A stretch of 30,821 nt of DNA from a virus. Within the stretch, counting starts at the first letter, position 1. Each line of letters starts with the position of its first letter. The position numbers and the translations under genes are program-made. Under the pieces are notes generated by a model, which saw nothing but the letters and a program-made list of their open reading frames with translations, was not told the origin of the DNA and made no database searches. Positions 125-29,624 of this stretch are shown in pieces. The stretch is from positions 1 through 30,821 of the IMG/VR virus record IMGVR_UViG_3300025106_000007. One strand, given 5' to 3'.

Positions 125-595
125 ATGGCACAAGGTAGACCGAGAAAGATCAGATCCGATTCTTCGTCCGAGATGGTAAAGCGTCTATCACGCTCTGACG
201 GAACCATCGCGGTCCCAGACGGCATGAATCTCGAAACCGAAGAATTGCGGGTAATTTGGGATCAATTTACCAGGGCGCGACGTCAAGAGGATTGGCGTGA
301 CATGGATTTAGTGTTACTGGAGAAGGTTGTACGGTTCGAGGTGAAGATCAGGGATTGCGAGCGTGTTATCCAGGATCAGGGGATGATCCTGGAGACCAAG
401 CGCGGGACGCCGATCAAGAATCCTCTGGTCGACATCCAGGATGGCTATTTGCGGCAAATGCTGGCGGTGATCCGCACGATGTCCCTGGGAACCAACGGCC
501 AGGATCGGCGCACGCTGGCGAACAACAAGCACGATGACGACGAGGCGGCTAGGAAGCTGAGGGAGATGGGAGCGCCTAAGTTGCTGGCGGTGTGA
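125..595 (+). CDS. terS: Phage terminase small subunit, P27-like
   Basis: This 156-residue protein is probably the DNA-recognition subunit of the packaging terminase, which brings viral DNA to the large subunit. The basic N-terminus (MAQGRPRKIR) is followed by a helical region. The central stretch reads QDQGMILETKRGTPIKNP and then QMLAVIRTMSLG, matching the P27-type pattern of a short beta segment, an NP motif and a final helix near an LG. Length and position directly before the large terminase agree with this. No strong Shine-Dalgarno site precedes the ATG, only an A-rich stretch. The stop codon overlaps a possible ATG at 595 (TGATG), which would have coupled it to the next gene before a palindrome inserted there. 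The assignment rests on pattern and synteny. Confidence 0.75.
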   Translation: MAQGRPRKIRSDSSSEMVKRLSRSDGTIAVPDGMNLETEELRVIWDQFTRARRQEDWRDMDLVLLEKVVRFEVKIRDCERVIQDQGMILETKRGTPIKNPLVDIQDGYLRQMLAVIRTMSLGTNGQDRRTLANNKHDDDEAARKLREMGAPKLLAV

Positions 596-717
596 TGGCG
601 CGGGTGGTCCACCGTGTCAATAGAAAAACTACCTGCCTGCCGGCAAGGCAGGCCTGCCTTGCCGGCAGGCAGGCCTGGCTGCGAGTATTCCTATGGCAAG
701 ACTCGCGGATAATGTAA
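595..717 (+). pseudogene. Probable displaced start region of the large terminase
   Basis: A 40-codon reading frame starts at an ATG overlapping the small-terminase stop (TGATG). It reads MARVVHRVNRKT, passes through the 42-bp palindrome and stops at 715-717. Removing 44 bp (632-675) would join this ATG in frame with the large terminase at 693, passing through MAASIPMARLADN. I infer that the coupled start originally belonged to the terminase and was separated by insertion of the palindrome. An independent small protein is the alternative. Confidence 0.4.
632..673. repeat. Perfect 42-bp palindromic GC-rich element
   Basis: All 42 bases equal their own reverse complement. The outer arms begin CCTGCCTGCCGGCAAGGC and the centre is AGGCCT. 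It is effectively two head-to-head copies of the short element found elsewhere in the window. It lies between the small and large terminase genes, where mRNA would form a very stable hairpin about 20 nt before the large terminase ATG. No U-tract follows, so it is not a standard terminator. Confidence 0.95.
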
Positions 718-2339
718 GAGCCGCGGTCAAGTGCGGCCCGATTCCGAAACTTCGTGACTTTCAAACACTCCCCCTTGAGCGACTTACTCGTGGCGAGCGA
801 GTTTGTCGTTTCATAACCGAATACCTGAAAGTTCCAGAGGGCGCGCTCGTTGGTCAGCCGGTACAGTTGGCGCCGTTTCAACAGGCGTTCATTGTGGCGG
901 TTTACGATAACCCAAAAGGGACGCGCAAAGCGTTTCTGTCTTGTGCGAGAAAGAACTCAAAGACGACGACGATTGCGATGCTGTTGCTGGCGCACATCAT
1001 CGGGCCTGAAGCGAAACAAAATACGCAGATTGCTTCAGCGGCGGCTTCTCGCGAACAAGCTGCCTTGGTTTTTCATGCTGCGGAAAAGATGATCAATCAA
1101 TCTACGGAACTGCGGCAGTTGACGCGAATCGTGCCTAGCGGGAAAAGAATTATCGGGTTGACGCGCAACGTTGAATACAAGGCATTGTCCGCAGAAGCTG
1201 GCACGGCCTTGGGAATGAGCTTGGCCTTGGCTATTTGCGACGAGCTTGGCATCGTGCGCGGACCGAGCTCTCCCTTTATCGACGCCATAACGACAAGTCA
1301 GGGCGCCCATGAAAACCCATTGCTTATCGGGATCAGCACGCAAGCGCCAAGCGACGCGGATATGCTGAGCGTGTGGCTTGATGATGCCGAGCGCAGCCAG
1401 GACCCGCACACTATATCTCATCTCTACCAGGCCGATTCAGGGGCCGATCTTCTTGACAAAAAGCAGTGGAGAAAAGCCAATCCAGCCCTGGGGCTGTTTA
1501 GGCTAGAGAAAGACTTAGAGGAGCAGTTAAAACAAGCGGCCAGGCTGCCCAGCATGGAAGCCAGCGCCCGCAACCTGCTTCTCAACCAGCGGATTTCGTT
1601 GATAAATTTGTTCCTCGCCCCGGCCGCCTGGAAGGCAAACTCCGCCAAGCCGGACATCGGCGTATTCCGCAATAATAAGGTATCGATGGGGTTGGACTTG
1701 TCGGCTCGCCAAGATCTAACCGCGGCGGTTCTGGCGGCAAAGGACGAGGACGGCGTGGTGCATCTTTTGCCGTTTGTGTATACCCCGCAGGCTGGACTGG
1801 AAGAGAGGGCATTGCGGGATCGCACTCCGTATGCTGCTTGGGTGCGCGACGGATATATGATTGCGGTTCCCGGGACCACTATCGATTACGATTGGCTGGC
1901 CGCTGATCTTAGCAAGCGCCTAAAGGACCTGGACATCCGCGTGCATACCATCGAATTCGACCGTTGGCGCTGGGAGCTTTTTCAAAAGGCGGCGGACGAG
2001 GCTGGATTGCGCTTTGACGTGATCAATCCAGTAGGGCAAGGGTATAAGGATATGTCACCTCGACTGGAGGCGTTCGAGTCGCTTTTGCTCCAAGGCAAGA
2101 TTCGGCATGGGGCGCATCCGCTTTTGAATATGAGCGCAGCAAACGCAATTGCGACATTTGATCCTGCTGGTAATAGGAAGCTTGATAAATCAAAAACTAC
2201 GTCCAGAATTGATCCGCTGGTGGCTAGTGTTATGGCGTGTTATGCCGTGGGCGAGGGTCAGGCGCGGGCGGTGCAATTTGACGTGCGGGCGGTCATAGGG
2301 TCCCTGGCTTGCTGCGCTATCGGGTTGGCGTTGTTGTGA
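693..2339 (+). CDS. terL: Phage terminase large subunit
   Basis: This is the ATP-driven packaging motor and headful or cos nuclease, 548 residues, of the Terminase_1 type. The N-terminal ATPase has a Walker-A-like CARKNSKTT at residues 84-92 and a Walker B LAICDELG around 179-186. The C-terminal RNase H-like nuclease shows GLDLSARQD (D335), EFDRWRW (D423) and SRIDPLVASVMA (D507), the expected three acidic positions. A usual terminase has a few more N-terminal residues, and the ATG used here lies just beyond a palindromic insert that separates it from the coupled start at 595. The end overlaps the next gene by a GTGA. Function is confident; the exact start is not. Confidence 0.93.
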   Translation: MARLADNVRAAVKCGPIPKLRDFQTLPLERLTRGERVCRFITEYLKVPEGALVGQPVQLAPFQQAFIVAVYDNPKGTRKAFLSCARKNSKTTTIAMLLLAHIIGPEAKQNTQIASAAASREQAALVFHAAEKMINQSTELRQLTRIVPSGKRIIGLTRNVEYKALSAEAGTALGMSLALAICDELGIVRGPSSPFIDAITTSQGAHENPLLIGISTQAPSDADMLSVWLDDAERSQDPHTISHLYQADSGADLLDKKQWRKANPALGLFRLEKDLEEQLKQAARLPSMEASARNLLLNQRISLINLFLAPAAWKANSAKPDIGVFRNNKVSMGLDLSARQDLTAAVLAAKDEDGVVHLLPFVYTPQAGLEERALRDRTPYAAWVRDGYMIAVPGTTIDYDWLAADLSKRLKDLDIRVHTIEFDRWRWELFQKAADEAGLRFDVINPVGQGYKDMSPRLEAFESLLLQGKIRHGAHPLLNMSAANAIATFDPAGNRKLDKSKTTSRIDPLVASVMACYAVGEGQARAVQFDVRAVIGSLACCAIGLALL

Positions 2340-2650: not shown

Positions 2651-2696
2651 CCTGCCTGCCTTGCCGGTAGGCAGGCCTGCCTTGCCGGTAGGCAGG
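2651..2696. repeat. Palindromic element, two tandem 21-bp copies
   Basis: Two identical 21-bp units (2655-2675 and 2676-2696), each containing CTGCCTTGCCGGTAGGCAG, follow a partial CCTG. They belong to the TTGCCGGTAGG subtype also found at 28413 and 30451. They lie ten bases after the HNH gene, in a gap without a clear gene. Confidence 0.95.
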
Positions 2697-5927: not shown

Positions 5928-6418
5928 TGTTATATGAATGCTTTTACAAGCCATTTTTCGGCCGTCGTATCCGAAAAATTACATCTACAACGGGATTAAC
6001 TCACGTTTTCCGTAATTTGTGGACATCGTATCGCGGATGTCATGGTGTTGCTACAATAGCTCCAGTAACGGCATGGATAGATCCGGTATTGCAGCCAATA
6101 GCGCCATCATTGCCGTTTAGCAGAAATGTCGGAGACACCATCATTTTAGATTTTGATTTTCATGGGCTAAATATTCCGGCTGGCGGAAAAACGGTTACAA
6201 TTGTTTATTCGTTTCCCGAGGTACTGTATAGGGACATTACTACAGTAGTAGATTTAGCTGCCGGTTTAACGCCAAGTCAAGCAGTAGATAAAATTGTTAC
6301 AGAACTAGTTGCAACTGGTGATTTCCATGTTACTAGAGGCCCTGGAACAACAATCAACATGCAATTTACTGACCCTAATAAACTGACACTGATAGATTTT
6401 AGGGTGACTTGGGCATGA
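5924..6418 (+). CDS. Uncharacterised phage protein with triplicated domain, copy 2
   Basis: This 164-residue paralogue of the preceding gene shares YECFYKPFFGRRIRKITSTT, then FHGLNIPAGGKTVTIVYSF and LTPSQAVDKIVTELVATG, aligned throughout with copy 1. The DNA is clearly richer in A and T than copy 1, so the pair is not a recent exact duplication; one copy was probably imported or diverged long ago. The start overlaps the upstream stop (ATGATG; 5924 or 5927). Its own stop overlaps the next start (ATGA). Function unknown. Confidence 0.8.
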   Translation: MMLYECFYKPFFGRRIRKITSTTGLTHVFRNLWTSYRGCHGVATIAPVTAWIDPVLQPIAPSLPFSRNVGDTIILDFDFHGLNIPAGGKTVTIVYSFPEVLYRDITTVVDLAAGLTPSQAVDKIVTELVATGDFHVTRGPGTTINMQFTDPNKLTLIDFRVTWA

Positions 6419-6747
6419 TTTACGTTCCCAAGTCTGCGCCCATGCCTATCCTGATTGAGAAAGGCATGACCGGGCGGCGAATGCGTGTCTTCGACGAGGG
6501 TGAGTTGGAGCGGCGTCTGCAAGCCGGCACTGTGCGTGAGCTTGGGCGTAATTTCTACGCGGCTACTGGGTTAGATATTGCCAAGCGGCCGAAGGTTGTG
6601 GTGCCACCTGAGGATCTGGACTCCGAGATCGACGAGGATGAGCCGCAGACCTATCAGACCCGTGACATGACGGCTACTCGCAAGCGCGGGCGTCCCATGC
6701 CTACCGGCAGGCAGGCCAGCCTACCGGCAGGCAGGCGAGGAAGGTAA
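6415..6747 (+). CDS. Small structural-region protein with basic tail altered by repeats
   Basis: This 110-residue protein starts IYVPKSAPMPILIEKGMTGR and continues with a charged helical part and an acidic stretch (PPEDLDSEIDEDEPQ). It ends with an AT-hook-like RKRGRP. Two palindromic elements are then read in two different frames as MPTGRQ and LPAGR before RGR-stop. Without the inserts the protein would end in a short basic tail. Start is the ATGA overlap with the preceding gene. No family recognised; the basic tail could touch DNA. Confidence 0.7.
   Translation: MIYVPKSAPMPILIEKGMTGRRMRVFDEGELERRLQAGTVRELGRNFYAATGLDIAKRPKVVVPPEDLDSEIDEDEPQTYQTRDMTATRKRGRPMPTGRQASLPAGRRGR
6700..6735. repeat. 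Palindromic element, two copies four bases apart
   Basis: CCTACCGGCAGGCAGG at 6700-6715 and again at 6720-6735, separated by CCAG. The first is preceded by CATG like most copies. Both lie inside the 3' end of the gene ending at 6747 and keep it open, the two copies being read in different frames. Confidence 0.95.
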
Positions 6748-6751
6748 AGCC

Positions 6752-6770
6752 ATGCCTACCGGCAGGCAGG
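6752..6770. repeat. Palindromic element supplying a start codon
   Basis: ATGCCTACCGGCAGGCAGG lies exactly between the ribosome binding site and the ATGATG of the small gene. The 21-base unit, including GCC or CC junction bases, adds seven codons without changing frame, so translation can begin on the element itself. Confidence 0.9.
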
Positions 6771-6994
6771 CCATGATGTATCCGGTCGAGGGTGGCAAGG
6801 TCGAGATCAATCCGGATCAGATTGTTACCGCACACAAGGAAAAAGGCGGCGATCAATGGCGGCTGTACATGAATGACAATAAGGAAGTCATTGTGACTAA
6901 GCATGAGTATGCCGAGATCCGTCCATGCCTACCGGCAGGCAGGAAGCTGGTCGGGGCTACGGTGCGACTAGTATGCACTACGGAGGCTGAATGA
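6752..6994 (+). CDS. Small protein carrying two in-frame palindromic elements
   Basis: An 80-residue protein of unknown function. The body is MMYPVEGGKVEINPDQIVTA, then QWRLYMNDNKEVIVTKHEYA and a short beta-rich end. The first seven residues (MPTGRQA) are encoded by one element. The Shine-Dalgarno GAGGAAGG (6737-6744) is correctly spaced for the element's own ATG at 6752; the ancestral start is probably the ATGATG at 6773. A second element encodes CLPAGR inside the protein (6928-6943). The stop overlaps the portal start (ATGA). Both inserts preserve the frame, arguing that the gene is still used. Confidence 0.7.
   Translation: MPTGRQAMMYPVEGGKVEINPDQIVTAHKEKGGDQWRLYMNDNKEVIVTKHEYAEIRPCLPAGRKLVGATVRLVCTTEAE
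6928..6943. repeat. Palindromic element inside a coding region
   Basis: CCTACCGGCAGGCAGG preceded by CATG, read as CLPAGR within the 80-residue gene, between EIRP and KLVG. Confidence 0.9.
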
Positions 6995-17719: not shown

Positions 17720-20596
17720 ATGGCTAGATCTTACCGTGATGTTGTAACTCGCTTGACTTTACAGATCCAAGGATGGGAAGCCGGGATTAAACGGCTGGAG
17801 CAATCCAATGAAAGGGTTGCCAATTCAGTTAAAAGCATCGAGTCACGTACTTCCAACTTCGCAAAAAACATAGCTGGCGCGTTCTCAATAGCCGCAGTTA
17901 AGAATGTTGGCTCGTTCCTGTCCAGTCTTCAACAACTGGACAACCGGCTTAAAGGCATTTCAGGCTCTAGTCAAGCTTATGCTGAGAATCTAAACTACAT
18001 CCGGGATGTATCATCACGATTTGGTTTGGCACAGGAGACGGTTCAGAAAGGCTTTACCAACCTTGCGGCCGCCGCGCAGATAGCTGGCAAATCAGTACGC
18101 GAGGCGCAGTCTGAGTTCACTGCGCTAGCTACCGCGGCGAGCGGAGCCGGGCTGTCTTCTGCCGAGCTTGAGGGTGTGCTCCTTGGATGGACTCAGCTCT
18201 CTGGCAATGCTGTTGTAAACCTTGAGGACTTGAGGCAGGTAGTAGACAGGCTACCTGGCGGGCTCAATCTTGCATTGAAAGCAATGCAGGACATGACTGG
18301 CAACACGGAGCTTACTGGCGACGCGTTCAAGAAGCTTGTATCTCAAGGTGCAGTAACGACTGACAAGTTCCTGCCTGCTCTGACAAAACAGCTTCAATCC
18401 GCTTTCGGCGCATCGGCACAGAAGAACGCCGAATCAATGGCGTCAAACATTACGCGATTCAATAATGCCTTGCGTGAGGTGGCAAGGCTAATAACCGAGT
18501 CTGCGCCGTTCCGAATTTTGACCGAGACCATGGAAGGGCTCAATAGCGTGCTTGGGTTATTAAACGAAAATTTGGATGTCGCCAGCGCAAAGCTTCAAGG
18601 TCTGCAGGTACAGACCAACCCGGAGATCGTCGAGCAAGCCGCTAAGGTCGCAGAGCTAACTCAGCGCAGAATTGATTTAGAGCAAAAGCTTAAACAGCTT
18701 GAGCCTGATTCCCGCGCCTATTCCAGGTTAGCGTCGGAAATCGCAAAGGTTACAGCAAATCTGAGCCAGCAAAGAGGCGTGCTGGATCGGATGCAGGAAT
18801 CTTGGGTTAAAGCCGAGGTTGCTGCGAAAGAAACGGCCAAATCAACATCGGATATCGGCGGAACGCAGATCGCCGGTACTGCAGATGAAATCGACAAGAT
18901 CGCCAAGGCGCTGAACCTGACCGCCAAGGGCGCGGAAAACCTACGTAAATTTTTCCCGGCCATCTCGCAAGCTGCGCAGGAAACGGGCGTAGACATAACT
19001 ACCATTATCGGCAAAATTTCTGTAGAAACAGGTAAGTTTACAGCATTCGTCAATCCAAATAGTTCAGCCCGCGGGCCGGCTCAAATTGTAGCAAAGACAG
19101 CAAAATATCTTGCAGACAAATATGGGTTCAGTTATGAGGCTCTTCGTACAGGAACAGATGAATGGGTACAAAATATCCGGGCCGGTGCTGCTTACCTTAA
19201 AGAGCAATATCAAGGGGTTGATTCTGAATTAGAGGCATTAGCTAAATATTTCCTCGGACCAGGCGATTTCAAGAAATACGGACTTGATTATACTACAGGC
19301 CCGAACGCCGGATTAACCGGGAGAGGATATGGAACTAAAATCATTTCAGAGGCAAACAAAGTCCGCGCTGTATTAGGAGATACTGGCGACGTAACGGCAA
19401 AGCTAACTGAGATTCAGAACAAACAACGAGAATCACTAAAGGCACTTGAAGACCAATACCGCGCCTATGGTGATGAGATTCAGGCGATAGACGCTGCGCA
19501 AGCCAAGCTCAACGAGTCCTTGTCCACAGCTAAGACAACATCCTTCGGCTCGGCAGCTGAGCTATCCAACATTCAAGCCATTGAGGCAGAGCTTGCCAAG
19601 CTGCAAGAGCGCGAGGATACGCTAGTCGCAGAACAAGCAAAGCTGTCGGCTAGCATTACTGAGATGGGCGGCACTGCAAAGGACGCAGGCGATGGCCTGA
19701 AGTCTGTTGGTGAGGCCGGAATCAAGGCGGCGGAAGGATTCGCCAAGGCGAACGAAAGCGCGGAATCCATGGTAGAGCGGCTGAAAACTGTTGCCGATGC
19801 TGTTGACCCGATGCGCTCATTACGCGAGGAATATGAGCTCACCATTAACGCAATCAATGATCTGTCTTTAATACCGGACATAGAGAAAAAGATAAACCTC
19901 GACCTTTCGGATCTTGAGCAAAAAGTTACTGCAAAGTTTGAGGTAGATGTTTCTAACATTGAGAGCGCAAAGACCGCAATCGGCAATCTCGGCATATCAT
20001 TCGAAGAACTGAAAATTCAGGGTATCGATGCAGTAAACGACGCGATGTCAAGCTTTATTGACGATCTGGTGGAAGGCACTGCAAGCGCCGAGGACGCGGT
20101 CAAGAGCCTGATCAAGCAGGTAGCCAAGCTCGCGCTACAATTCGCTGTCACCAATGCCTTCAAAGGCATTACGGGCTTATTCGGCAACGCCAAGGGCAAC
20201 GCTTACGACAAGCTGGCGTTGCCATATGGCGTCTACACAGCTCCCACGGTTTTTGCTCTGCCAGAAGCGGGCCCGCTCAAGCGCTACGCCAAGGGAGGCA
20301 TTTTGGGCGAGCGAGGAGCTGAGGCGGTGATGCCGCTGGCGCGGATGGCTAATGGAGATCTGGGTGTGCAGTCCAGCACGGTCACGGTTCAGCCTATCGT
20401 AAACATCACAGAGACAACCGACACGACAAAACAGGGAACGGTGAAAACGAGCACTAATAGTAATGGCGAATCAGTGATTGATGTGCTTATTGCTAAGGTT
20501 AAAGCTGAATTCCAGTCTGATGTAGGCTACGGCGGGACCTTCTCCAAAGTTATGGAGCAACAATATGGGCTGCGGCGTTCGTTAGGAGCTTACTAA
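17720..20596 (+). CDS. Tape measure protein with embedded lytic transglycosylase
   Basis: The 958-residue ruler of tail length. The N-terminus matches the tape-measure domain (QQLDNRLKGISGSSQAY, FGLAQETVQKGFTNLAAAA, NLEDLRQVVDRLPGGLNLAL). Long helical segments follow. Residues about 405-555 form an SLT-like domain with KISVETGKF (likely catalytic Glu436), NSSARGPAQIV and ALAKYFLGPGDFKKYG, presumably for local wall digestion during DNA entry. The C-terminus has the typical YAKGGILGERGAEAVMPLAR motif. It would specify a tail of roughly 140 nm by the usual 1.5 angstrom per residue rule. Confidence 0.93.
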   Translation: MARSYRDVVTRLTLQIQGWEAGIKRLEQSNERVANSVKSIESRTSNFAKNIAGAFSIAAVKNVGSFLSSLQQLDNRLKGISGSSQAYAENLNYIRDVSSRFGLAQETVQKGFTNLAAAAQIAGKSVREAQSEFTALATAASGAGLSSAELEGVLLGWTQLSGNAVVNLEDLRQVVDRLPGGLNLALKAMQDMTGNTELTGDAFKKLVSQGAVTTDKFLPALTKQLQSAFGASAQKNAESMASNITRFNNALREVARLITESAPFRILTETMEGLNSVLGLLNENLDVASAKLQGLQVQTNPEIVEQAAKVAELTQRRIDLEQKLKQLEPDSRAYSRLASEIAKVTANLSQQRGVLDRMQESWVKAEVAAKETAKSTSDIGGTQIAGTADEIDKIAKALNLTAKGAENLRKFFPAISQAAQETGVDITTIIGKISVETGKFTAFVNPNSSARGPAQIVAKTAKYLADKYGFSYEALRTGTDEWVQNIRAGAAYLKEQYQGVDSELEALAKYFLGPGDFKKYGLDYTTGPNAGLTGRGYGTKIISEANKVRAVLGDTGDVTAKLTEIQNKQRESLKALEDQYRAYGDEIQAIDAAQAKLNESLSTAKTTSFGSAAELSNIQAIEAELAKLQEREDTLVAEQAKLSASITEMGGTAKDAGDGLKSVGEAGIKAAEGFAKANESAESMVERLKTVADAVDPMRSLREEYELTINAINDLSLIPDIEKKINLDLSDLEQKVTAKFEVDVSNIESAKTAIGNLGISFEELKIQGIDAVNDAMSSFIDDLVEGTASAEDAVKSLIKQVAKLALQFAVTNAFKGITGLFGNAKGNAYDKLALPYGVYTAPTVFALPEAGPLKRYAKGGILGERGAEAVMPLARMANGDLGVQSSTVTVQPIVNITETTDTTKQGTVKTSTNSNGESVIDVLIAKVKAEFQSDVGYGGTFSKVMEQQYGLRRSLGAY

Positions 20597-20597
20597 A

Positions 20598-20987
20598 ATG
20601 GCGGCATATCCAAGTACACTCCCAAGTCCTACAATTGACTCTTATTCGATTACGCCGTTTGATCCAACAATCCGTACGGATATGGCGAACGGGTTGGCGA
20701 AAGTCAGGCGTGTTACTCGCAGGCGTGTAGACACAATTTCTGTACGTTGGACATTTACCAGAGTGCAGTTTGCTGCTTTTCGCAATTGGTGGCATGACAG
20801 TACTGGGGCGGATGGTGGAGCGGCCTGGTTTAATATTAAATTATACTCGGGTGTCCCAAGCTCAGGTGCGGCCGGTGGAGATTGTGAGCAACAGAATAAA
20901 GCACGATTTGCCGGCCCTTGGGCAGCTTCTCCGAATACTGCTTACTACTTCAATGTTACCGCCGACCTGGAGGTGGTAGATGCCTGA
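20598..20987 (+). CDS. Minor tail protein (gpM-like position)
   Basis: A 129-residue protein directly after the tape measure. Features are RRVDTISVRWTFTRVQFAAF and NWWHDSTGADGGAAWFNIKL, a pattern common in distal tail or tail-tip adaptor proteins of lambda-like phages. It overlaps the next gene by eight bases. The family call is from position and the W-rich segment. Confidence 0.65.
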   Translation: MAAYPSTLPSPTIDSYSITPFDPTIRTDMANGLAKVRRVTRRRVDTISVRWTFTRVQFAAFRNWWHDSTGADGGAAWFNIKLYSGVPSSGAAGGDCEQQNKARFAGPWAASPNTAYYFNVTADLEVVDA

Positions 20988-21483
20988 TACAACACTGAGT
21001 CAGGCAATCAAAGAGGCTTACGCCACAAAGCCAGAGATTGTTATTTATCATACTCTAGAGTTTAGCCATCCCAGTCTTGCTAATTCGATTAGAGTAGTGC
21101 AGGGGTTTCACGACATTACTGCCGAGGGGCAAAACTGGCAAGCAGTTCCGTTTGAGCTGGTATTGCCTGAAGTTACTGAACTGTCTCCACCAAATATTTC
21201 TATCAAAATTGACGCAGTGGCTGGCTACATTTTAGAGGCAATTGAAACCATCGCCGCTACGATGACCAATGACCCAATCAAGGTGACCTACAGGGCGTTC
21301 TTGGAAACTGCGATGGGGGCCCCGGCCAATCAACCGCCACTGTCATTGTCACTTTCTGATATCAGTGTAAACGAGTTTTCCGTAACTGCTACTGCCAGCC
21401 TGTCTCCATTGAATAATAGGAAATGGCCACGACGCATTTACACTGACGATGATTTTCCAGGATTGCTCAGTGTCACTTCCTAA
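20980..21483 (+). CDS. DUF1833-type tail protein (gpL-like position)
   Basis: A 167-residue protein with AIKEAYATKPEIVIYHTLEF at the start, PFELVLPEVTELSPPNISIK in the middle and RKWPRRIYTDDDFPGL at the end, all typical of the DUF1833 family found next to NlpC/P60 tail proteins. The KWPRRIYT motif is strongly characteristic. It overlaps both neighbours. Confidence 0.8.
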   Translation: MPDTTLSQAIKEAYATKPEIVIYHTLEFSHPSLANSIRVVQGFHDITAEGQNWQAVPFELVLPEVTELSPPNISIKIDAVAGYILEAIETIAATMTNDPIKVTYRAFLETAMGAPANQPPLSLSLSDISVNEFSVTATASLSPLNNRKWPRRIYTDDDFPGLLSVTS

Positions 21484-21868
21484 CTGGACAAACGATTATC
21501 TTGGGCTGCCGTTCATTGTGGGTGAGCGGGACTGCTGGTCATTCTTTAGGCAAGTGCAGAATGATCAATTCAAGCGTAAAGTGGCAGCGATTGATATTAA
21601 TGCCAAAGACACTCTGGCAGTTATGCATACCGTGGCAAACCATTTAGAAAGAAAGCTATGGTTTGAAACGGATGATCCTCAACTGGGTGATGGTGTTTTA
21701 ATGGCAAAGGGCGAGCATCCTTTCCATGTCGGTTGCTATATCGGATCAGACTATATATTGCATTGTATCGAGCCAATTGGTGTAATCCTTCAGACCATCG
21801 TCAGCTTGCGCCTTCACGGCTGGCAGAATTTACGGTTTTATCGTCATGCATCTTGTTACGTTCAATAA
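21449..21868 (+). CDS. NlpC/P60-like tail tip peptidase (gpK-like)
   Basis: This 139-residue protein probably cleaves peptide bonds of the wall during infection. It shows YLGLPFIVGERDCWSFF with the candidate nucleophile Cys in RDCW, and HPFHVGCYIGSDYILHC with the partner His. It overlaps DUF1833 by 35 bases if the ATG at 21449 is used; the GTG at 21470 (VSLPNWTNDYLG) is an equally good start and removes most of the overlap. The 3' end overlaps the J-like gene by 23 bases. Confidence 0.8.
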   Translation: MIFQDCSVSLPNWTNDYLGLPFIVGERDCWSFFRQVQNDQFKRKVAAIDINAKDTLAVMHTVANHLERKLWFETDDPQLGDGVLMAKGEHPFHVGCYIGSDYILHCIEPIGVILQTIVSLRLHGWQNLRFYRHASCYVQ

Positions 21869-24800
21869 TCCTTTCGATCCTGGCGACCATACTGTAACGC
21901 CAATCGAGCATCCGTGCTGGCTTGCTGAGCTTAGCCCAGAGGAAGATGAGCGTGCCTATATCATGCTGGTCAACGGACATCCGATCTTGCGTAGTGATTG
22001 GGACGTAACCTGGATTGACGGTAATGACCTAGTAACGGTTGGTTATCTCCCAGCAGGCGGCGGTGACACCAAAGACATATTTCGTGCGGTCGCATTGATT
22101 GCTGTTGCGGCTGTTGCTTGGTGGGCTGGTGGAGCATTGGCCGCCGGGCTCACTTCATCGGGCCTAGTTGCGTCTTCTACTGCAGCTACTGCAATAGGTG
22201 GTGGACTTTCACTTGCTGTTGCGGCTGGTGGATCAATCCTTGTCAATGCGTTGATCCCAGTCACTTCACCCTATGTAAAAGAAACGGCAGATAGTACTTT
22301 CAATCAGTCCCCAACTTATTCAATTAGTGGTGGAAATAACACTGCCAGACTGGGGCAAGTAATTCCTGTTCAATATGGCCGGATGAAGTTCTTCCCGGAC
22401 TTCGGTGCTGCTCCTTGGACTTGGTATAGATGGAATGAGCAGGATTTATATGAACTGCTTATACTTGGAGAAGGCGAATACGCGATAGAAAGTATCGCAA
22501 TTAATGACGTAGATATAAGCAACTATACCGATGTTGCTTGGAGACAATACGGACCAAATGAAGATCCGGATTTATTTCCTACCCAAATATTTTCCACAAG
22601 TGCTGGAAATCATTTATTGGAGAACATGTACCAGCAGGGGTCCGGTGGTGAGCGATGGTCCCCCGCTATAATTGCCAATCCAGCCGGGACGATATTAAAT
22701 GGCGTACATATTGATATTAATGCTCCAGCTGGCGCTTATCGTATAGAGGAAGATACGGGTGATATAAAAGATATTCCAATAGGCATCAGAGCAGAACTTA
22801 GACATATCGATCAATCCGCTAATCCAATATCACCCTGGACTTTGGCTGGAGAATGGTGGGTCACTTATAGTACTAGAGAGGCTATTAGAGTCTCGTATTC
22901 TTTGACAGTCCCAGCTAATTGGCAAAGAGTGCAAGTCCGCGTATGCAGAGTTGATAAAACAGTTAGCTCTAGTGAAAGAGTTGTCGATAAGTTTTATTTA
23001 GAAACTGTTAAAGGCGGGACATTTACTTCAGCTGGTAGTTTGGCGGCCACTAGCAAGCTTGCTATAAAAGTTAGAGCTTCAAATCAGTTGACTAGTCAAA
23101 CGGCGGTTAAAGTTTCAGTAATTGGAACTCGCAAGTTAAAGCTGTTCCGCAATGGTGCATTTCAAACGACGGCCACAGCTACGAGAGGGTGCGGTGATGC
23201 GCTGATCGATGCGTTGACCAATGACGTATATGGTGCCGGGCTACCGATCACGCGCCTTGATATTCCAGCTATGCTGGCGTTGAATAATATAGAATTCGAC
23301 GGACGTTTTGATAGTTCATCTACAGCTTGGGAAGTAATTACCACGATTGCTAAGGTTGCGCGGGCAGTTGTCTATTCCCAAGGTGGTTTGCTGCGTGTTG
23401 CTAGAGATACTGGAAAAGGCCCCACTGTTGCGGTTTTCTCTTCCCGCAATATTGTAGCTGGTAGTTTTGCTCTTGATTATGTAGTCCCAACGGAAAATAC
23501 GGCAGAAGCTGTAAAAGTAGAGTACTGGGACGAGACAGTATGGGCACAACGATATGTGTCCGTTCGTTACGATGGCGCACAGCTTAGCGAGGAGGACGTA
23601 GAGGCTTCTGTTAATCTATTTGGTTGTGTTAATAGAAATAGGGCCTATAGCGAGGCGTGGTATTTAGCTCGTTCTAATCGCTATAGACGTAGACTGATTT
23701 CTTTCCAAACAGAGATGGAGGGATTTATTCCGTCACTCGGCGATGAAATCAGTGTTAGCTATGATATGCCCGGTTGGGCAAAAAGCGTAGACATCAAGGC
23801 TTGGCTGAATTCAACTACAGTACAATTTGCCGAAGCAATTGATTGGGCATCAATCGGCGGCGGCGCAACAATTGCGTTTCAAGGTGCAGATAATAGCCGA
23901 CTAACCGCTATTGGAGTAACACGTGGGTCTGCAGATGACATAGGCGTATTGGTTAGTGCTCCAAGTCAAAGCGTTATTCCTGGTAAGCAGTTTGGAGTAA
24001 TCGCCACGACCTCTAATTTTTCACGTGTTGCTATTGTCACTAAAGTAACGCCAGCCTCTTTGCATTTGGTGACAATCGAAGCGATTATTGATGATACGCG
24101 GGCACATGATAATTCACCGACCCCGCCGACTCCTACTCCACCGATTCGGCCTTGTCCAACGCCAACCGTTGTGGGTCTCCAGCTTTCTGGATTTCCTGGC
24201 TATGTCATAGTAGCTAATTGGGATGCGGATAGCTGTGCTAAATATTTTGTTGTCGAATACGCCCAATGGACTGGGGCGACTCCGCCAGCAACAGGCTGGT
24301 ATAAAGCGGGGAACTACAATTACAAAACTGCACGATTCACATCTGCTATTGGTGGAGACATTTGGGTTCGAGTAGCGGCTGTCGGTGATAACCAAGGAGC
24401 ATGGGTATATAGCAATACTAGGGCCATAGCTGCTGGAGTTCCCGGAAATCCAACTGGCGGTCCACCAGCTCCGACCAATATTATTTGTACTTCATTCATT
24501 GGCGCGCTATTACTGGAATGGCTAAACCATCCATCAGCCGAAGCTGTGCAGGTATTAAGGGCACCGGTAGCAGATGTAGCAAGAACAGAACTAATTGCAA
24601 CAGTACGGCATGCCGAACGATATTTCGACCGGTCAATGCCGCAGCTTGGCATTCCGTATTACTACTACCTGCGGAGTGTTGATGTTAATGGTCTGGTTGG
24701 ACCGGAATCAGTAGTTAAAAGCTGTATTCCAGACAGGTATGTTAAAGATGTAATTGATGAAATACATGGCGTCATCGACAAAAGTTGGCTTACCCAAGAG

Positions 24801-27263
24801 CTTATTCAATTTATAACCTACGGAAATCCATACGCGCAAGAGATCTCCGATAGGCTAGACAGCATTCAAGGAGCACAACCTTGGGACTCAACCAGAAATT
24901 ATAAAGCCGGTGAATATGTTACTTTCAATGGCGATTTATATCTGTCAACACAGCCAAGCTTAAATAAGCAACCCGATCAAAATCCTAATGAATGGCACAA
25001 TATTGGCCAATATGCCGGAGCATTGGCGGCGTTAGGCGTTCGTATTGATACAGTAGTAGCGGAGGTCAATAAACAATCCGGAGATATTAATAATCTTGCT
25101 CAACAGATAAATGCTGTTCAAGCAAACCAAGGAGTCCATAATCTCTTAAACGATCCGCAGTTTGAATATGATACAACGTGGACGTTTTTGAGTGCTGATG
25201 TTACTGGCCCTGCCGTCAAATATGCTACTTATACTAGCGGGCTCTTTGGCGCACGTGCGTTAAAAACAGGAGTAGCGTCTAATGAGCGAACAGCAAGACT
25301 GTCGTCTACTGGTGCCACCATTTCAACGAGCTATGTGCAAATTGCTCAGTCTCCTTTGCCGGTAGAGGTAAACAAACGGTACCAATTCTCTGCTTATGTT
25401 GGCGCGTTACCACATGCAGTTTCTCTTTTCATTCTGTTTTATGATTCGGCCGATACACTCTTAACTACGGAATCAGCAGTTGTAGCAGCCACTAAAAGCG
25501 GCGGCAATGCACTCACCGACTGGGATCGTCCGGTAGTGTTTGGTGTTGCTCCTGCTGGTGCAGTTTATGCGCGTGTTATCATACGCATAACTCAGAATGG
25601 CACTGCCAGCCAGAGTAATTTAACCGCCTATATAGTTCGCCCCATGTTTGCTGTTGCCGGGGCGACCCAAACTGAGCCCAGCACTTGGGGTCCGGGCTTG
25701 TCTGCAGCGGCGGAGGCGTTTAATACACTTAGGTCACAAGTCACTACAATAGACGGAAGGGTCACGGCAAATGCAACGGCTATCACAGCGGCAAATGCAG
25801 AGTTAACTGCTCAAAATAATCGGATTACTGGCAATGCGAACGCGCTTACTACGCTAGACACAAAAGTAACAAATATCGATGGGAAGATAGCTGCAAACGC
25901 AACGGACATCTCAGAGCTTCGGGCGCAAACCGGAAGCGCGAACCTACTTAATGACCCAATATTTGAATCCAAATTGGGTATAGCGTGGTTTAAAACATAT
26001 TCAGCCGGAGTTGTTGGACCGAGCTATTGGCAAGGGAATTCTTCTGATTGGAATCAAATTCTTTATACTCAAGAGACCGGAATAAATGCTAGTGCCGCTT
26101 CAATACCAGCAAACAATCATGTAGGTATATATCAACTTGTTTCAGTTATAGGCTCTACTTGGTATGCGCTTTCTGTTCATTTATCGATACTCAATACAAC
26201 GTGCAGGATTGCGATTACTTGGTTAGATGTAAATAAAAATGTGATAGTTGTCTCATCCAGAGACATTGTTCCTACAACGCCAGCTGATGGACCGTCTTCT
26301 ATTTATTGGCCTCGCTTTTTATTAAATGCCCAGTCCCCGGCTAATGCGCGGTTTGCTTATATCTATTTACTTAACGTCGGTCCGGCCTCAGGAACGCACA
26401 CTGTATTTTTCTTTAGGCCACAACTTTGGTACTCAACTGCGAAAACTACTCTTCCTCCCCCATGGACTCCTGGAGAAAACCCTCCACTGTTCGCTGCACT
26501 CAAGCGCGAAGGCATGGCATGGGCCGATGGTACAGGCGGCGGAGGTGTAAAATATACAGTCAAGGCGGAGATCGAGGACGGCGATAATATCGTTCAAGCC
26601 GGTTATGGGCTTTCAGTAGTAAAAGAAGACAATCAATGGGTTTCTGATTTCTTTATTAATGCCAATAGATTTGCGATACGTGACCCGGCGGCTGTTCCAG
26701 GCACTGGTTTACAATATCCATTTGTTGTAATGAATGGCAATGTCTATATGCGTAATGCATATATACAGAATGCCTCAATTGACAACGCCAAGATTGCTAA
26801 CCTGGCAGTCACAAACATTAAAATGGCGGAGTATTCTAACGTACTCGCTGGAAATTTTAGCGCGCATTTGAGTAATGGCGGCGCTGCATGGTTTAATGTA
26901 TGGTCCGGATCAGATTGGTCAAGCAAAAGAATACTGTTTTTTCTTATTGGGCACACCGATTTCTACCCTGATAGTTTTTCTGGCGGCTCAATACAAGTAG
27001 GATTAAAATCTAGTAACAATGATGCACTTATAGATTCCAGTTTTCATGGTTCTGCTGAAAAATATACCAACCTCATACAAGAAACAGGCATGGCCACCGT
27101 TTTAGTAAAAACGAGTGATGGGGAGGCAGGACGAAAAATAGTGTATGGTACGATTGCGGTTGATATACAAGCATCGGGCAATATTCCTTTTTATATTTGG
27201 TCTTATTACAATAGATGCAGTACCCCATATGTTCAGGTTAGTTGGATATTAGGGCAAAAATAA
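21846..27263 (+). CDS. Tail tip / host specificity protein (J-like) with fused sugar-binding modules
   Basis: An 1805-residue central tip protein. Residues about 75-145 hold the hydrophobic segment typical of J proteins (AVALIAVAAVAWWAGGALAA). A hub region follows (NNTARLGQVIPVQYGRMKFF). A Pro/Thr linker at 756-774 leads to two fibronectin-III-like domains. Then comes a carbohydrate-binding-like module near 1012-1055 (DSTRNYKAGEYVTFNGDLYL). After it a coiled coil plus a beta domain is present twice, each opening with NLLNDPxFE (about 1099 and 1366). The C-terminus has VYMRNAYIQNASIDNAKIAN as in DUF1983-type J ends, then a tip domain. Far longer than lambda J (1132 residues). Confidence 0.9.
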   Translation: MHLVTFNNPFDPGDHTVTPIEHPCWLAELSPEEDERAYIMLVNGHPILRSDWDVTWIDGNDLVTVGYLPAGGGDTKDIFRAVALIAVAAVAWWAGGALAAGLTSSGLVASSTAATAIGGGLSLAVAAGGSILVNALIPVTSPYVKETADSTFNQSPTYSISGGNNTARLGQVIPVQYGRMKFFPDFGAAPWTWYRWNEQDLYELLILGEGEYAIESIAINDVDISNYTDVAWRQYGPNEDPDLFPTQIFSTSAGNHLLENMYQQGSGGERWSPAIIANPAGTILNGVHIDINAPAGAYRIEEDTGDIKDIPIGIRAELRHIDQSANPISPWTLAGEWWVTYSTREAIRVSYSLTVPANWQRVQVRVCRVDKTVSSSERVVDKFYLETVKGGTFTSAGSLAATSKLAIKVRASNQLTSQTAVKVSVIGTRKLKLFRNGAFQTTATATRGCGDALIDALTNDVYGAGLPITRLDIPAMLALNNIEFDGRFDSSSTAWEVITTIAKVARAVVYSQGGLLRVARDTGKGPTVAVFSSRNIVAGSFALDYVVPTENTAEAVKVEYWDETVWAQRYVSVRYDGAQLSEEDVEASVNLFGCVNRNRAYSEAWYLARSNRYRRRLISFQTEMEGFIPSLGDEISVSYDMPGWAKSVDIKAWLNSTTVQFAEAIDWASIGGGATIAFQGADNSRLTAIGVTRGSADDIGVLVSAPSQSVIPGKQFGVIATTSNFSRVAIVTKVTPASLHLVTIEAIIDDTRAHDNSPTPPTPTPPIRPCPTPTVVGLQLSGFPGYVIVANWDADSCAKYFVVEYAQWTGATPPATGWYKAGNYNYKTARFTSAIGGDIWVRVAAVGDNQGAWVYSNTRAIAAGVPGNPTGGPPAPTNIICTSFIGALLLEWLNHPSAEAVQVLRAPVADVARTELIATVRHAERYFDRSMPQLGIPYYYYLRSVDVNGLVGPESVVKSCIPDRYVKDVIDEIHGVIDKSWLTQELIQFITYGNPYAQEISDRLDSIQGAQPWDSTRNYKAGEYVTFNGDLYLSTQPSLNKQPDQNPNEWHNIGQYAGALAALGVRIDTVVAEVNKQSGDINNLAQQINAVQANQGVHNLLNDPQFEYDTTWTFLSADVTGPAVKYATYTSGLFGARALKTGVASNERTARLSSTGATISTSYVQIAQSPLPVEVNKRYQFSAYVGALPHAVSLFILFYDSADTLLTTESAVVAATKSGGNALTDWDRPVVFGVAPAGAVYARVIIRITQNGTASQSNLTAYIVRPMFAVAGATQTEPSTWGPGLSAAAEAFNTLRSQVTTIDGRVTANATAITAANAELTAQNNRITGNANALTTLDTKVTNIDGKIAANATDISELRAQTGSANLLNDPIFESKLGIAWFKTYSAGVVGPSYWQGNSSDWNQILYTQETGINASAASIPANNHVGIYQLVSVIGSTWYALSVHLSILNTTCRIAITWLDVNKNVIVVSSRDIVPTTPADGPSSIYWPRFLLNAQSPANARFAYIYLLNVGPASGTHTVFFFRPQLWYSTAKTTLPPPWTPGENPPLFAALKREGMAWADGTGGGGVKYTVKAEIEDGDNIVQAGYGLSVVKEDNQWVSDFFINANRFAIRDPAAVPGTGLQYPFVVMNGNVYMRNAYIQNASIDNAKIANLAVTNIKMAEYSNVLAGNFSAHLSNGGAAWFNVWSGSDWSSKRILFFLIGHTDFYPDSFSGGSIQVGLKSSNNDALIDSSFHGSAEKYTNLIQETGMATVLVKTSDGEAGRKIVYGTIAVDIQASGNIPFYIWSYYNRCSTPYVQVSWILGQK

Positions 27264-27991
27264 TGAGACACGTAATAGTTGAGCTTCATACTGGCCGAAT
27301 CATTGGAGAATACGATCAGGCTAATATTGAATATATCCCTACGGCTGACCCGGCGATTACGGCTGAAACATATTATTGGGATGGGGCAAAGCTTGCACCA
27401 AGGCCACAACAGGTAAGCCACTGGAGCAAGAACGTACTCGATGCCGATGGAACAGACCACATTGTGATTACCGGTCTGTCGCAACATGCAAGCGTGATGA
27501 TACAAGAAACCGGGCGTGATCTACATGTTGATCCAACTGGATTAGTGCAACTCTCATTTACAGAGCCAGGTACTTATACGCTTGTAGTAGAAGACTTTCC
27601 GAAAGCCAAGTATGTTCAGCACATATTGGCGCGGAGTGTAACGTCTACGCCAGTTGCGTGGACTCCGCCGGCTATTACGCCTGTTATGCCATTGCCAGTT
27701 ACTGGCGATGGACAGCATACCGTGATAGCTGGGTTTATATTTGATTTTCATGATGCTTTGGTTCCTTTGCCCGGTAAGACAGCAACGATTGTTTACAATG
27801 TAGGAGCCGCAGATATTACCGTGCCAGTGCCACTACAGGATTCATTGGCTGGTGACGAAGTATTGGAACATCTTAAAGATGCGTTGCTTCATGAAACAGG
27901 ATTTTTAACTGTTTTTGTATCCGGCTATACGTTGCAAATTGTCCCTGATATGAACGTTGTTCTTAGTAAATTTGATGTGACAATAGCATGA
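27263..27991 (+). CDS. Tail accessory protein with triplicated domain, copy 3
   Basis: This 242-residue protein is coupled to the J stop (TAATG). The first 50 residues (IIGEYDQANIEYIPTADP and YYWDGAKLAPRP) look like a chaperone or tip-attachment segment. Residues about 60-115 form a small beta domain. The last about 110 residues repeat the domain of the proteins at 5466 and 5924: ITPVMPLPVTGDG, FHDALVPLPGKTATIVYNVG and ADITVPVPLQ. So this uncharacterised domain is attached to both head-side and tail-side genes. Function unknown; virion surface or decoration is inferred. Confidence 0.75.
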   Translation: MRHVIVELHTGRIIGEYDQANIEYIPTADPAITAETYYWDGAKLAPRPQQVSHWSKNVLDADGTDHIVITGLSQHASVMIQETGRDLHVDPTGLVQLSFTEPGTYTLVVEDFPKAKYVQHILARSVTSTPVAWTPPAITPVMPLPVTGDGQHTVIAGFIFDFHDALVPLPGKTATIVYNVGAADITVPVPLQDSLAGDEVLEHLKDALLHETGFLTVFVSGYTLQIVPDMNVVLSKFDVTIA

Positions 27992-28239
27992 TAATTAACA
28001 TTGGCCCAGACATAGATGAGCTACGCCATCGGTATTTGGCCGAAGGATTGAGCCATCTGTACGAGAAAAGCCCGAAGCTCAAAAAGGCACGAACGCTTGG
28101 GCATTTATCCAAGCATTCCGTACCAGAGCATTGGAAAGACCAAGTAGAAACGTTCTACGATGATATTATGACGGCGAGTACCGTTCCGGAGTGCCTAGCG
28201 CTTCTCCGGAAATGGCAAGAGAAGACGTGGGAAGAATAA
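27988..28239 (+). CDS. Small helical protein closing the tail operon
   Basis: An 83-residue protein with DIDELRHRYLAEGLSHLYEK and PECLALLRKWQEKTWEE, largely alpha-helical. ATGA overlap couples it to the preceding gene. It could be a tail-fibre assembly factor by position; no family recognised. It is the last plus-strand gene and faces the minus-strand operon. Confidence 0.65.
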   Translation: MIINIGPDIDELRHRYLAEGLSHLYEKSPKLKKARTLGHLSKHSVPEHWKDQVETFYDDIMTASTVPECLALLRKWQEKTWEE

Positions 28240-28245
28240 GTGCCG

Positions 28246-28267
28246 GCCTGCCTGCCGGCAGGCAGGC
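28246..28267. repeat. Perfect 22-bp palindrome between convergent operons
   Basis: GCCTGCCTGCCGGCAGGCAG plus GC is identical to its reverse complement. It lies in the 42-bp gap between the last plus-strand and last minus-strand genes, where a bidirectional transcription block would be expected. No U-tract is present on either side. Confidence 0.95.
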
Positions 28268-28281
28268 TGCGCTCAGGGCGC

Positions 28282-28695
28282 TCATTTGCAACCATCGCTC
28301 CATATTTTGTAGCCTCTATCGCCTGGTCGGCTCATGCCTACCGGCAGGCAGGTGTCCCAACTAGGCACCTTGATCTGCTGAAAAATTGGCTCCAGGTCTG
28401 TGGTCTTACGCTCCTGCCTTGCCGGTAGGCAGGTGCCATTTGGTCTTACAGGCGAACGATACTTGCCAACGGTTTTGGAGCAGGACGTACAGGGGGTGGC
28501 ATATCCGTTCAGCTCCCGGTAAGCCGCGCCGGTGCGAAGGCGCTCCAGCACATTGCTACGGGACATCTTCTGGACCCTGCCGCAGCACTCCATGCGCACG
28601 ATGAATCTAATGTCGCCATCACCTTGGTCGCGTGGAGCGCGTAGCACGGTAATGCCGGCATCCGGGTAATGCTTAGTTTCAATCACTTTTTTCAT
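28282..28695 (-). CDS. Zinc-ribbon-like protein with two in-frame palindromic elements
   Basis: A 137-residue protein of unknown role. RMECCGRVQKMSRSNVLERL and YATPCTSCSK give a CC plus CxxC set that may bind zinc. Two elements are read in frame: NGTCLPARQER (28413-28433) and WDTCLPVGMSRP (28337-28352). The start is the ATG at 28695, seven bases after GGAG; the ATG at 28701 is too close to it. It is the last gene of the minus-strand operon. Confidence 0.6.
   Translation of the reverse strand: MKKVIETKHYPDAGITVLRAPRDQGDGDIRFIVRMECCGRVQKMSRSNVLERLRTGAAYRELNGYATPCTSCSKTVGKYRSPVRPNGTCLPARQERKTTDLEPIFQQIKVPSWDTCLPVGMSRPGDRGYKIWSDGCK
28337..28352. repeat. Palindromic element inside a gene
   Basis: CCTACCGGCAGGCAGG preceded by CATG, read on the minus strand as TCLPVGM within the 137-residue zinc-ribbon-like gene. 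Confidence 0.9.
28413..28433. repeat. Palindromic element inside a gene, TTGCCGGTAGG subtype
   Basis: The 21-bp unit is identical to the two at 2655-2696 and to the one at 30451. It is read on the minus strand as CLPARQ between PNGT and ERKTT. Confidence 0.9.
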
Positions 28696-28707
28696 TATCA
28701 TACTCCA

Positions 28708-28785
28708 TCACATATTTCTCCATCGATGCCAACCGCAAGCAATTAACGCAGGAGCTTCGCCATCTTTTTCAATCGTGATTTTCAT
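28708..28785 (-). CDS. 25-residue peptide gene in the minus-strand operon
   Basis: The ATG at 28785 opens MKITIEKDGEAPALIACGWH followed by RWRNM. GGAGACC lies just upstream, inside the end of the preceding gene, and the stop lies near the next gene's GGAG. Spacing and coupling argue for translation; the function is unknown. Confidence 0.45.
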   Translation of the reverse strand: MKITIEKDGEAPALIACGWHRWRNM

Positions 28786-28951
28786 GCTGGTCTCCGTTTT
28801 TCAGCCGGTTGGCGTGTGAAGCTAACATCTCGATTCCCGAGGCTTTGGCGATCACATCAGCCCATTCTTCACGGTGGATAGCCATCAGGATGTTTTGCCA
28901 TTCCTGCCGTATTTGCCAGGCAACGCTTTCGTATTCGCTGTCGTGTACCAT
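28769..28951 (-). CDS. 60-residue helical protein, unknown function
   Basis: A charged protein with SVAWQIRQEWQNILMAIHRE and DVIAKASGIEMLASHANRL, predicted helical. AAGGTAAG lies before its ATG. It overlaps the next 25-residue gene by 17 bases. Such short proteins are typical of phage early or accessory operons. No family recognised. Confidence 0.55.
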   Translation of the reverse strand: MVHDSEYESVAWQIRQEWQNILMAIHREEWADVIAKASGIEMLASHANRLKNGDQHENHD

Positions 28952-28961
28952 TGTCTTACCT

Positions 28962-29051
28962 TTAGAAAACCAGATATAAGATAGCTATCCATGCAGCTAT
29001 TCCGAAAATGGCAGCGTAGATCCAGACTGCGCTTTTTGAAATGCGTATCAT
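28962..29051 (-). CDS. 29-residue membrane peptide
   Basis: MIRISKSAVWIYAAIFGIAA then WIAILYLVF is a basic N-terminus plus one membrane span. The ATG lies one base beyond the stop of the upstream gene and has GGGGA before it. It would be missed by length filters. Function unknown. Confidence 0.5.
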   Translation of the reverse strand: MIRISKSAVWIYAAIFGIAAWIAILYLVF

Positions 29052-29052
29052 T

Positions 29053-29289
29053 TTAGATTTCCCCATCGACTCTTTTGAAGCTCACGCTTATACGCCTAAC
29101 AGCCTCATCAAGCTTGTCTGCCCATTTACGATACCGCAAGGCATCGCTCGGTTGTTTGTGCGCAAGATGCTCGGCTTCGCGTCGCCAATCTGCTGCTGAC
29201 ACAGTAAGCTCTTTAATGACGGCCTCTGCGCTGTTTGGGGTGTAGTGGTAATGGTTTAGGATGCTGAAATATTCTCGGCTGCTTAGCAT
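29053..29289 (-). CDS. 78-residue helical protein, unknown function
   Basis: A soluble protein with AVIKELTVSAADWRREAEHL and DALRYRKWADKLDEAVRRIS, mostly alpha-helical. It overlaps the end of the upstream secreted-protein frame by 77 bases, a large overlap that suggests one of the two has a wrong end. Unrecognised. Confidence 0.55.
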   Translation of the reverse strand: MLSSREYFSILNHYHYTPNSAEAVIKELTVSAADWRREAEHLAHKQPSDALRYRKWADKLDEAVRRISVSFKRVDGEI

Positions 29290-29494
29290 TGTTAATTTTC
29301 TCCACCAGTTTGGTTTGTCGCCTAAGTTCGCGCTCCATACGCTTCTGGCGAGCTTCCTGCTGGTGCTGCTCGTTGATCTCGTGAAGGCGCTGCCAGCGCT
29401 CCAGGTTGAAGTCCTCGGCCGCCCATGCCTCCCGGCAGGCAGGCGCAGGGAGCGCGAGGATGGCGGCGAGGAGGGTTGGGATTATTTGGTTCAT
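29213..29494 (-). CDS. Small exported protein with an in-frame palindromic element
   Basis: A 93-residue protein beginning MNQIIPTLLAAILALPAPA, a signal-peptide-like start, followed by PACREAWAAEDFNLERW and a long charged helix (NEQHQQEARQKRMERELRRQ). PACREA comes from a palindromic element inserted at the likely cleavage region. In this frame the usual element would give a stop codon (TAG), but here it reads GAG. ATGA overlap couples it to the upstream membrane protein. A small periplasmic coiled-coil protein, possibly spanin-like, is one guess. Confidence 0.6.
   Translation of the reverse strand: MNQIIPTLLAAILALPAPACREAWAAEDFNLERWQRLHEINEQHQQEARQKRMERELRRQTKLVEKINNAKQPRIFQHPKPLPLHPKQRRGRH
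29428..29443. repeat. Palindromic element with a stop-removing substitution
   Basis: CCTCCCGGCAGGCAGG, preceded by CATG, differs from the common CCTACCGGCAGGCAGG by one base. On the minus strand this changes TAG to GAG in the frame used by the exported protein, keeping it open. Confidence 0.9.
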
Positions 29495-29622
29495 TTGAGC
29501 ATCGGCAATGTGCCGAGAGCCGCCAGGAACCAGATCACTACGCCGGGCAGGCCGAAGAATAGGCCGATTGGGAAAGTGATTGCCAGGATGGCGATGTTGA
29601 TGAATTTGCGGGTGTTGGTCAT
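29491..29622 (-). CDS. 43-residue membrane protein
   Basis: MTNTRKFINIAILAITFPIG then LFFGLPGVVIWFLAALGTLP is a short basic N-terminus followed by one long or two short membrane segments. AGGA precedes the ATG, which lies two bases after the upstream stop. It is coupled by ATGA to the exported protein. Paired membrane and exported small proteins recall holin/spanin sets, but this is only suggestive. Confidence 0.6.
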   Translation of the reverse strand: MTNTRKFINIAILAITFPIGLFFGLPGVVIWFLAALGTLPMLK

Positions 29623-29624
29623 GT

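Follow-up and report, generated by a model that had tools for sequence, protein, structure and literature searches.

A 42-bp palindrome between phage terminase genes is probably a head-to-head pair of small, dispersed REP-like repeats

The DNA analysed here – in what follows, the window – is the 30,821-base IMG/VR viral record IMGVR_UViG_3300025106_000007. Near its left end stand the genes for the small and large subunits of a terminase and, in the stretch between them, a perfect palindrome of 42 bp. The features of this locus are as follows.

125..595 (+): terminase small subunit (TerS); PHROG 5601, E 7e-14, and Pfam Terminase_4, E 3e-7
593..597 (+): TGATG, the TerS stop overlapping a potential start; from the sequence
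595..717 (+): candidate leader frame of 40 codons, ATG595 to TAA 715-717; from the sequence
632..652 (+): palindromic unit 1, CCTGCCTGCCGGCAAGGCAGG; from the sequence and repeat count
653..673 (-): palindromic unit 2, an exact inverted copy of unit 1, with which it forms the 42-bp palindrome
679..708 (+): predicted 8-bp stem-loop containing AUG693; from folding
693..2339 (+): terminase large subunit (TerL), HK97 type; PHROG 9, E 8e-107, and Pfam TerL_ATPase and TerL_nuclease

The terminase genes form an HK97-type pair: TerS comes first and is adjoined by a TerL with ATPase and nuclease domains, the TerL of the window being about 53% identical to that of HK97. Two features distinguish the pair from its HK97 counterpart, namely about 30 extra N-terminal residues on TerL – an extension common to the relatives L155, L160, L199, L204, L206 and L214 – and the presence of the palindrome in the spacer between the genes. 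As the original prediction for this locus recognised, the TGA of TerS (593-595) overlaps an ATG (595-597) whose frame is shifted relative to that of TerL at ATG693. The leader read from ATG595 has no known homologue. In the TerL frame there is no ATG, GTG or TTG besides 693 before residue 59. The stem-loop predicted over AUG693 folds at -12.8 kcal/mol (676-710; z -2.6), a value that loses significance in the longer stretch 660-725, where z is only -0.4.

The palindrome itself, which the same prediction had correctly placed ahead of the large terminase, occupies 632-673, cannot be extended, and has halves that read CCTGCCTGCCGGCAAGGCAGG/CCTGCCTTGCCGGCAGGCAGG. It is the sole perfect palindrome of more than 22 bp in the window, whereas the longest in 20 dinucleotide shuffles of the window measured 16 bp. 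Folded as RNA it gives -43 kcal/mol (z -6.7). A second contig, L002 (IMGVR_UViG_3300009430_000201), which is 99.8% identical to the window over 2,676 bp, carries the identical palindrome in the identical arrangement, and an assembly error of one contig is therefore unlikely. L002 is also the sole close relative at this site, and since it holds the same pair no empty TerS/TerL site was found for the copy at 632-673. Two further observations concern the left end: the window begins in poly-G (1-25), with an indel relative to L002 that likely marks a sequencing or assembly limit, and L002 has imperfect AT-rich tandem repeats at 600-1500, on the 5' side of the terminase genes, which may represent an origin-like region.

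The 42-bp palindrome is an inverted pair of a unit of 20-21 bp, and the 21-bp unit is itself nearly palindromic. Twenty-four such units are present in the window, against zero to two fuzzy matches per shuffle in 20 shuffles. They occur singly, as tandem pairs, as the inverted pair at 632-673 and as a perfect 21-bp array at the contig end; further copies lie upstream of the window's left end in L314, the whole contig to which L002 belongs. Units beyond the terminase locus, together with the replication gene that the array enters, are listed below; L310 is a related contig described in the next paragraph.

2655..2696 (+): two units in tandem, 3' of an HNH ORF; from repeat count
6696..6735 (+): tandem pair of units, in frame with ORF 6409-6747 at its 3' end (MPTGRQASLPAGRRGR)
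6751..6770 (+): unit at the start of ORF 6752-6994
6924..6943 (+): unit in frame within ORF 6752-6994 (CLPAGR)
28247..28266 (+): unit, with eight other bases in L310; from contig comparison
28333..28352 (+): unit, also in L310; from contig comparison
28413..28433 (+): 21-bp unit, cleanly absent from L310; from contig comparison
29424..29443 (+): unit, L310 holding a different unit 5 bp away; from contig comparison
30180..30199 (+): unit, also in L310; from contig comparison
30451..30471 (+): unit, also in L310; from contig comparison
30590..30821 (+): tandem array, 11 copies of the 21-bp unit to the contig end, the site being empty in L310
30476..30820 (-): frame of a Rep3-type replication initiator, in frame with the array; the intact L310 homologue matches Pfam Rep3_N and Rep3_C

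The array runs up to the contig end, so that the count of 11 is uncertain and may reflect assembly. Several of the phage copies are intragenic. The unit ought to be tolerable in coding DNA or translated leaders, since its 21 bp amount to a whole number of codons and most of its reading frames are free of stops.

Evidence on the behaviour of the unit came from L310 (IMGVR_UViG_3300009455_000118), a contig from another metagenome that was found by searching for the 21-bp variant and that matches 19738-30594 of the window. Away from the elements, 11 base substitutions and a single 3-bp indel are all that separate the two contigs; of the seven element sites, four differ. The cleanest case is 28413, where L310 is shorter by exactly 21 bp, the flanks are identical and a target duplication is absent. 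The case of 28247 is no clean insertion, L310 having eight other bases where the window has the unit. Near 29424 each contig carries a unit, but the two units differ and are offset by 5 bp, as if inserted independently. The Rep3 frame of L310 is intact and holds no element at 30595, whereas in the window the array lies in frame inside Rep3. No difference is seen at 28333, 30180 and 30451. From this pattern – near-identical contigs that disagree at most of their element sites, one of them a clean empty site – we infer rapid gain or loss of the 21-bp unit. All differences between the contigs fall right of 26973 (26973-30594), 19738-26972 being identical, and the right end of the window hence varies or recombines.

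That right end also bears on the host. The Rep3-type frame (window 30476-30820, minus strand; L310 10709-10999, minus strand) is a plasmid initiator in a tailed-phage contig and is closest to those of Chromatiales plasmids: the protein shares 83% identity with a plasmid-borne Rep of Thioflavicoccus mobilis and 67% with one of Sedimenticola thiotaurini. TerL, for its part, is closest to those of proteobacterial phages and plasmids. Given these affinities, a Chromatiales-type host and a phage-plasmid life appear likely from sequence comparison. The portal protein returned no relative, and the sole relative found for the ORF at 29625-30476 is in L310. No element was present in a 30-kb stretch of the Thioflavicoccus plasmid or in the whole Sedimenticola plasmid, the 21-bp variant occurred in none of 398 Pseudomonadota genomes, and a 69-nt stretch of the window with the palindrome gave only weak, chance-like matches to named plasmids and phages.

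The repeat is nonetheless widespread elsewhere. Its 20-bp core, CCTGCCTRCCGGYAGGCAGG, is dispersed, mostly in intergenic DNA, through uncultivated Patescibacteria, Bacteroidota and other groups. The 21-mer CATGCCTACCGGCAGGCAGGC is found in 115 stretches of GTDB contigs, and the titles shown for these name Patescibacteria groups, Bacteroidota, Ignavibacteriae, Omnitrophota, Chloroflexi, Nitrospirota, Planctomycetota and others. Frequencies were tallied around four centre genomes, each of which had been picked because it bears the repeat and is included in its own count. In evenly drawn samples the 16-bp core occurred in 53 of 192 genomes that share the phylum of the Jorgensenbacteria MAG G005, with as many as 35 copies, and in six of 274 that share the class of the Betaproteobacteria MAG G018, always as a single copy; a reversed-pattern control gave 1/192 and 0/274, respectively. 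The full 20-mer occurred in 18 of 148 genomes in the phylum of the Sphingobacteriales MAG G010. In the phylum of the Chloroflexi MAG G013 it was present in one genome of 151, namely G013 itself, with 20 copies. Among 20 chosen genomes the 16-bp core reached up to 50 per genome.

An unbiased set of 53 host copies, drawn from eight genomes, shows conservation over exactly the 20 bp of the core and flanks that are unrelated. Only 14 of the 53 lie inside ORFs of at least 300 nt, against 252 of 315 shifted control places. Where copies are genic they read as LPAGRQ, CLPAGR or MPTGRQA. The clear in-frame insertion is in a phosphohexomutase, in which KPCLPAGRKKF forms extra residues beside a conserved motif; an in-frame copy in a uracil-DNA glycosylase, again as extra residues, is a weaker case, and in the glycosyltransferase L289 the structure alignment around the putative insertion is weak. 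Such peptides carry a warning for annotation: a stretch such as LPAGRQ or MPTGRQA in a metagenomic protein may stem from an inserted repeat. A lysine/alanine-rich repetitive protein of G016 (AKKAMPTGRQAAP) holds three copies (L308:1493, 1733 and 1826), as if the element had entered and had then been copied along with the protein repeats. A 38-kb stretch of Bacteroidota chromosome in G875 (L325, L326) has 13 fuzzy element matches, mostly between genes; judged by ORF layout only, it looks like ordinary chromosome rather than a prophage. That one 20-mer is shared by Patescibacteria, Bacteroidota and a phage of proteobacterial type points to horizontal spread or else to shared machinery.

At the terminase junction itself relatives provide the contrast. 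Of 105 scanned loci with relatives of TerL, a number that includes the GenBank record L214, not one shows a palindrome of at least 18 bp between TerS and TerL; away from the junction, five palindromes of that size were found in four of the loci. Because the unit is dispersed, because its presence is polymorphic elsewhere in the phage and because the palindrome is missing from these junctions, 632-673 behaves like inserted DNA, as the original prediction had supposed, and more precisely like two copies of one unit. In our judgement the 42-bp palindrome probably consists of two head-to-head mobile REP-like repeats of 20-21 bp, which added 14 codons to the leader and left the TerL start at 693 in place.

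Among the alternatives, the one that survives best, although we regard it as improbable, is that the hairpin is a regulatory RNA which adjusts the ratio of TerS to TerL as an attenuator or terminator. The strong fold in the intercistronic stretch speaks for it; yet the palindromic unit also sits at many unrelated places, the scanned relatives have no palindrome at the junction, and the palindrome has no match in Rfam. An intrinsic terminator in particular was rejected: position 673 is followed by CCTGGCTG, with no T run after the stem.

Also improbable, and slightly less credible still, is the account first offered for this locus, in which a 44-bp insertion broke a longer TerL frame running from TGATG and forced the use of the internal start at 693. 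Deleting 632-675 does open a single frame from ATG595 into TerL at MARLADN, and the spacing between the genes is unusually long: from the TerS stop to the PEG motif the window has 238 nt, exceeded in only two of 89 relatives, L216 (375) and L158 (522). (The 89 are those with an upstream ORF of at least 100 codons, mostly picked by length and position rather than TerS homology; five more non-identical relatives have no such ORF.) But a cut of 41 bp serves equally well, while 42 and 43 fail, and the unit that is cleanly gained or lost elsewhere measures 21 bp, so that 44 bp is a fit rather than a measured length and the frame-restoring deletion was rejected. A 21-bp unit makes a pair of 42 bp, or 14 codons, and hence leaves the leader frame of ATG595 unchanged: without the palindrome the leader has 26 codons, in the same frame and with the same TAA at 715-717. 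The restored TerL, moreover, would have about 32 residues before the GPI motif, against roughly 6-25 in the extension-bearing relatives inspected.

The starts of palindrome-free relatives speak to the same issue. The original prediction had looked to relatives lacking the palindrome, and starting TerL at the equivalent of 693, as the evidence that would tell against it, and L206 is essentially such a relative: its TerL starts at a TAATG overlap, one residue off the 693 equivalent (MTLPGHVKRAIRSGPV vs MARLADNVRAAVKCGPI). In L154, L160, L199 and L214, likewise without the palindrome, TerL starts within a few residues on either side, L154 lying further in and L160, L199 and L214 – as also L155 and L204 – further out. 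The palindrome probably did not change the start site of TerL.

That the hairpin stimulates a -1 ribosomal frameshift fusing the leader to TerL seems to us very unlikely, for although the TerL frame is open upstream to 624 and G-AAA-AAC lies directly 5' of the hairpin, this is not a standard slippery heptamer, the spacer between heptamer and hairpin is only 1-2 nt, and no inspected relative has such an arrangement. We give just as little credence to an assembly or library artefact, which the 11-copy array at the contig end might suggest, but against which stand the presence of the 42-bp palindrome in two contigs, the occurrence of copies in numerous separate assemblies, among them contigs of 2.9 and 3.7 Mb, and the tendency of the copies to avoid coding DNA, unlike an artefact.

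Returning to the reading of the palindrome as a pair of REP-like repeats, a plausible course of events can be sketched. The unit is gained or lost in the phage as a clean 21-bp block without target duplication (so at one site, the others being messier); it has multiplied in the phage and its near relatives and is dispersed in several bacterial phyla; movement in trans by a host enzyme and copying during DNA repair are both candidate routes. Placed between TerS and TerL, the pair would have lengthened the leader by 14 codons without altering its frame, its stop or the TerL start. Ribosomes ending TerS may restart at ATG595 and translate the leader, thereby opening both the hairpin and the predicted stem-loop over AUG693, then stop at 715-717 and restart at 693 for TerL. 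A stable hairpin in the leader could slow this chain of translation from TerS through leader to TerL, and frame-neutral units could enter such a leader without breaking it.

A more ambitious reading, which we advance only tentatively, is that a gene-less palindrome of 20-21 bp is actively mobile, spreading through phages and bacterial phyla and inserting cleanly and frame-neutrally. If this is true, the unit would rank with the smallest mobile DNAs on record, its movement depending on a trans-acting or repair-based mechanism. Near-identical contigs that differ mainly in the placement of a 21-bp palindrome would in any case provide a natural assay for the movement of REP-like DNA. In the open-access literature searched, including searches with the literal sequences and peptides, no description of the repeat was found.

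Comparison with known elements helps to place it. MITEs are non-autonomous, inverted-repeat, dispersed elements, and the repeat resembles them in all three respects; it departs from them in its length of only 20-21 bp and in the lack of a target-site duplication at the clean empty site of 28413. Rickettsia palindromic elements (RPEs) are about 100-150 bp long and known from Rickettsia. Like them, the unit is a palindrome inserted in frame into proteins, as in the phosphohexomutase and, less securely, the uracil-DNA glycosylase, but at 20-21 bp it falls well short of their length. RPEs are mentioned in PMC3733652.

The closest likeness is to REPs (repetitive extragenic palindromic elements), which the same source describes as dispersed palindromes of 20-40 bp, mostly extragenic, single or in dimers and clusters, and sometimes in frame inside genes; those at the 5' ends of genes may be extragenic, with translation starting downstream (PMC3733652). 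The repeat of phage and hosts agrees with this in the broad sense, the 20-bp unit being a small dispersed palindrome, mostly extragenic, that forms dimers and clusters and is sometimes in frame. Against the GTAG and CGTC superfamilies of REPs, the unit has no unpaired end tag: nothing outside the 20 bp is conserved, and GTAG is seen solely within the palindrome, in one of its variants. As to a mobilising enzyme, none was found, Y1_Tnp being present in none of three phage records. Among Patescibacteria genomes hand-picked from the 192, this domain of the RAYT (Y1) transposases occurs in 16 of the 20 that are rich in the element and in 8 of the 20 that are free of it (Fisher p 0.02), but the element lies within about 1.5 kb of Y1 at just two of 30 loci, both among the 21 from element-rich genomes, which is about chance level; an association with RAYTs is unconvincing. 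Because the tag is lacking and the tie to RAYTs is weak, we call the repeat REP-like and file it in neither superfamily. It further differs from REPs in that nearly the same 20-mer recurs across phyla and in a phage.
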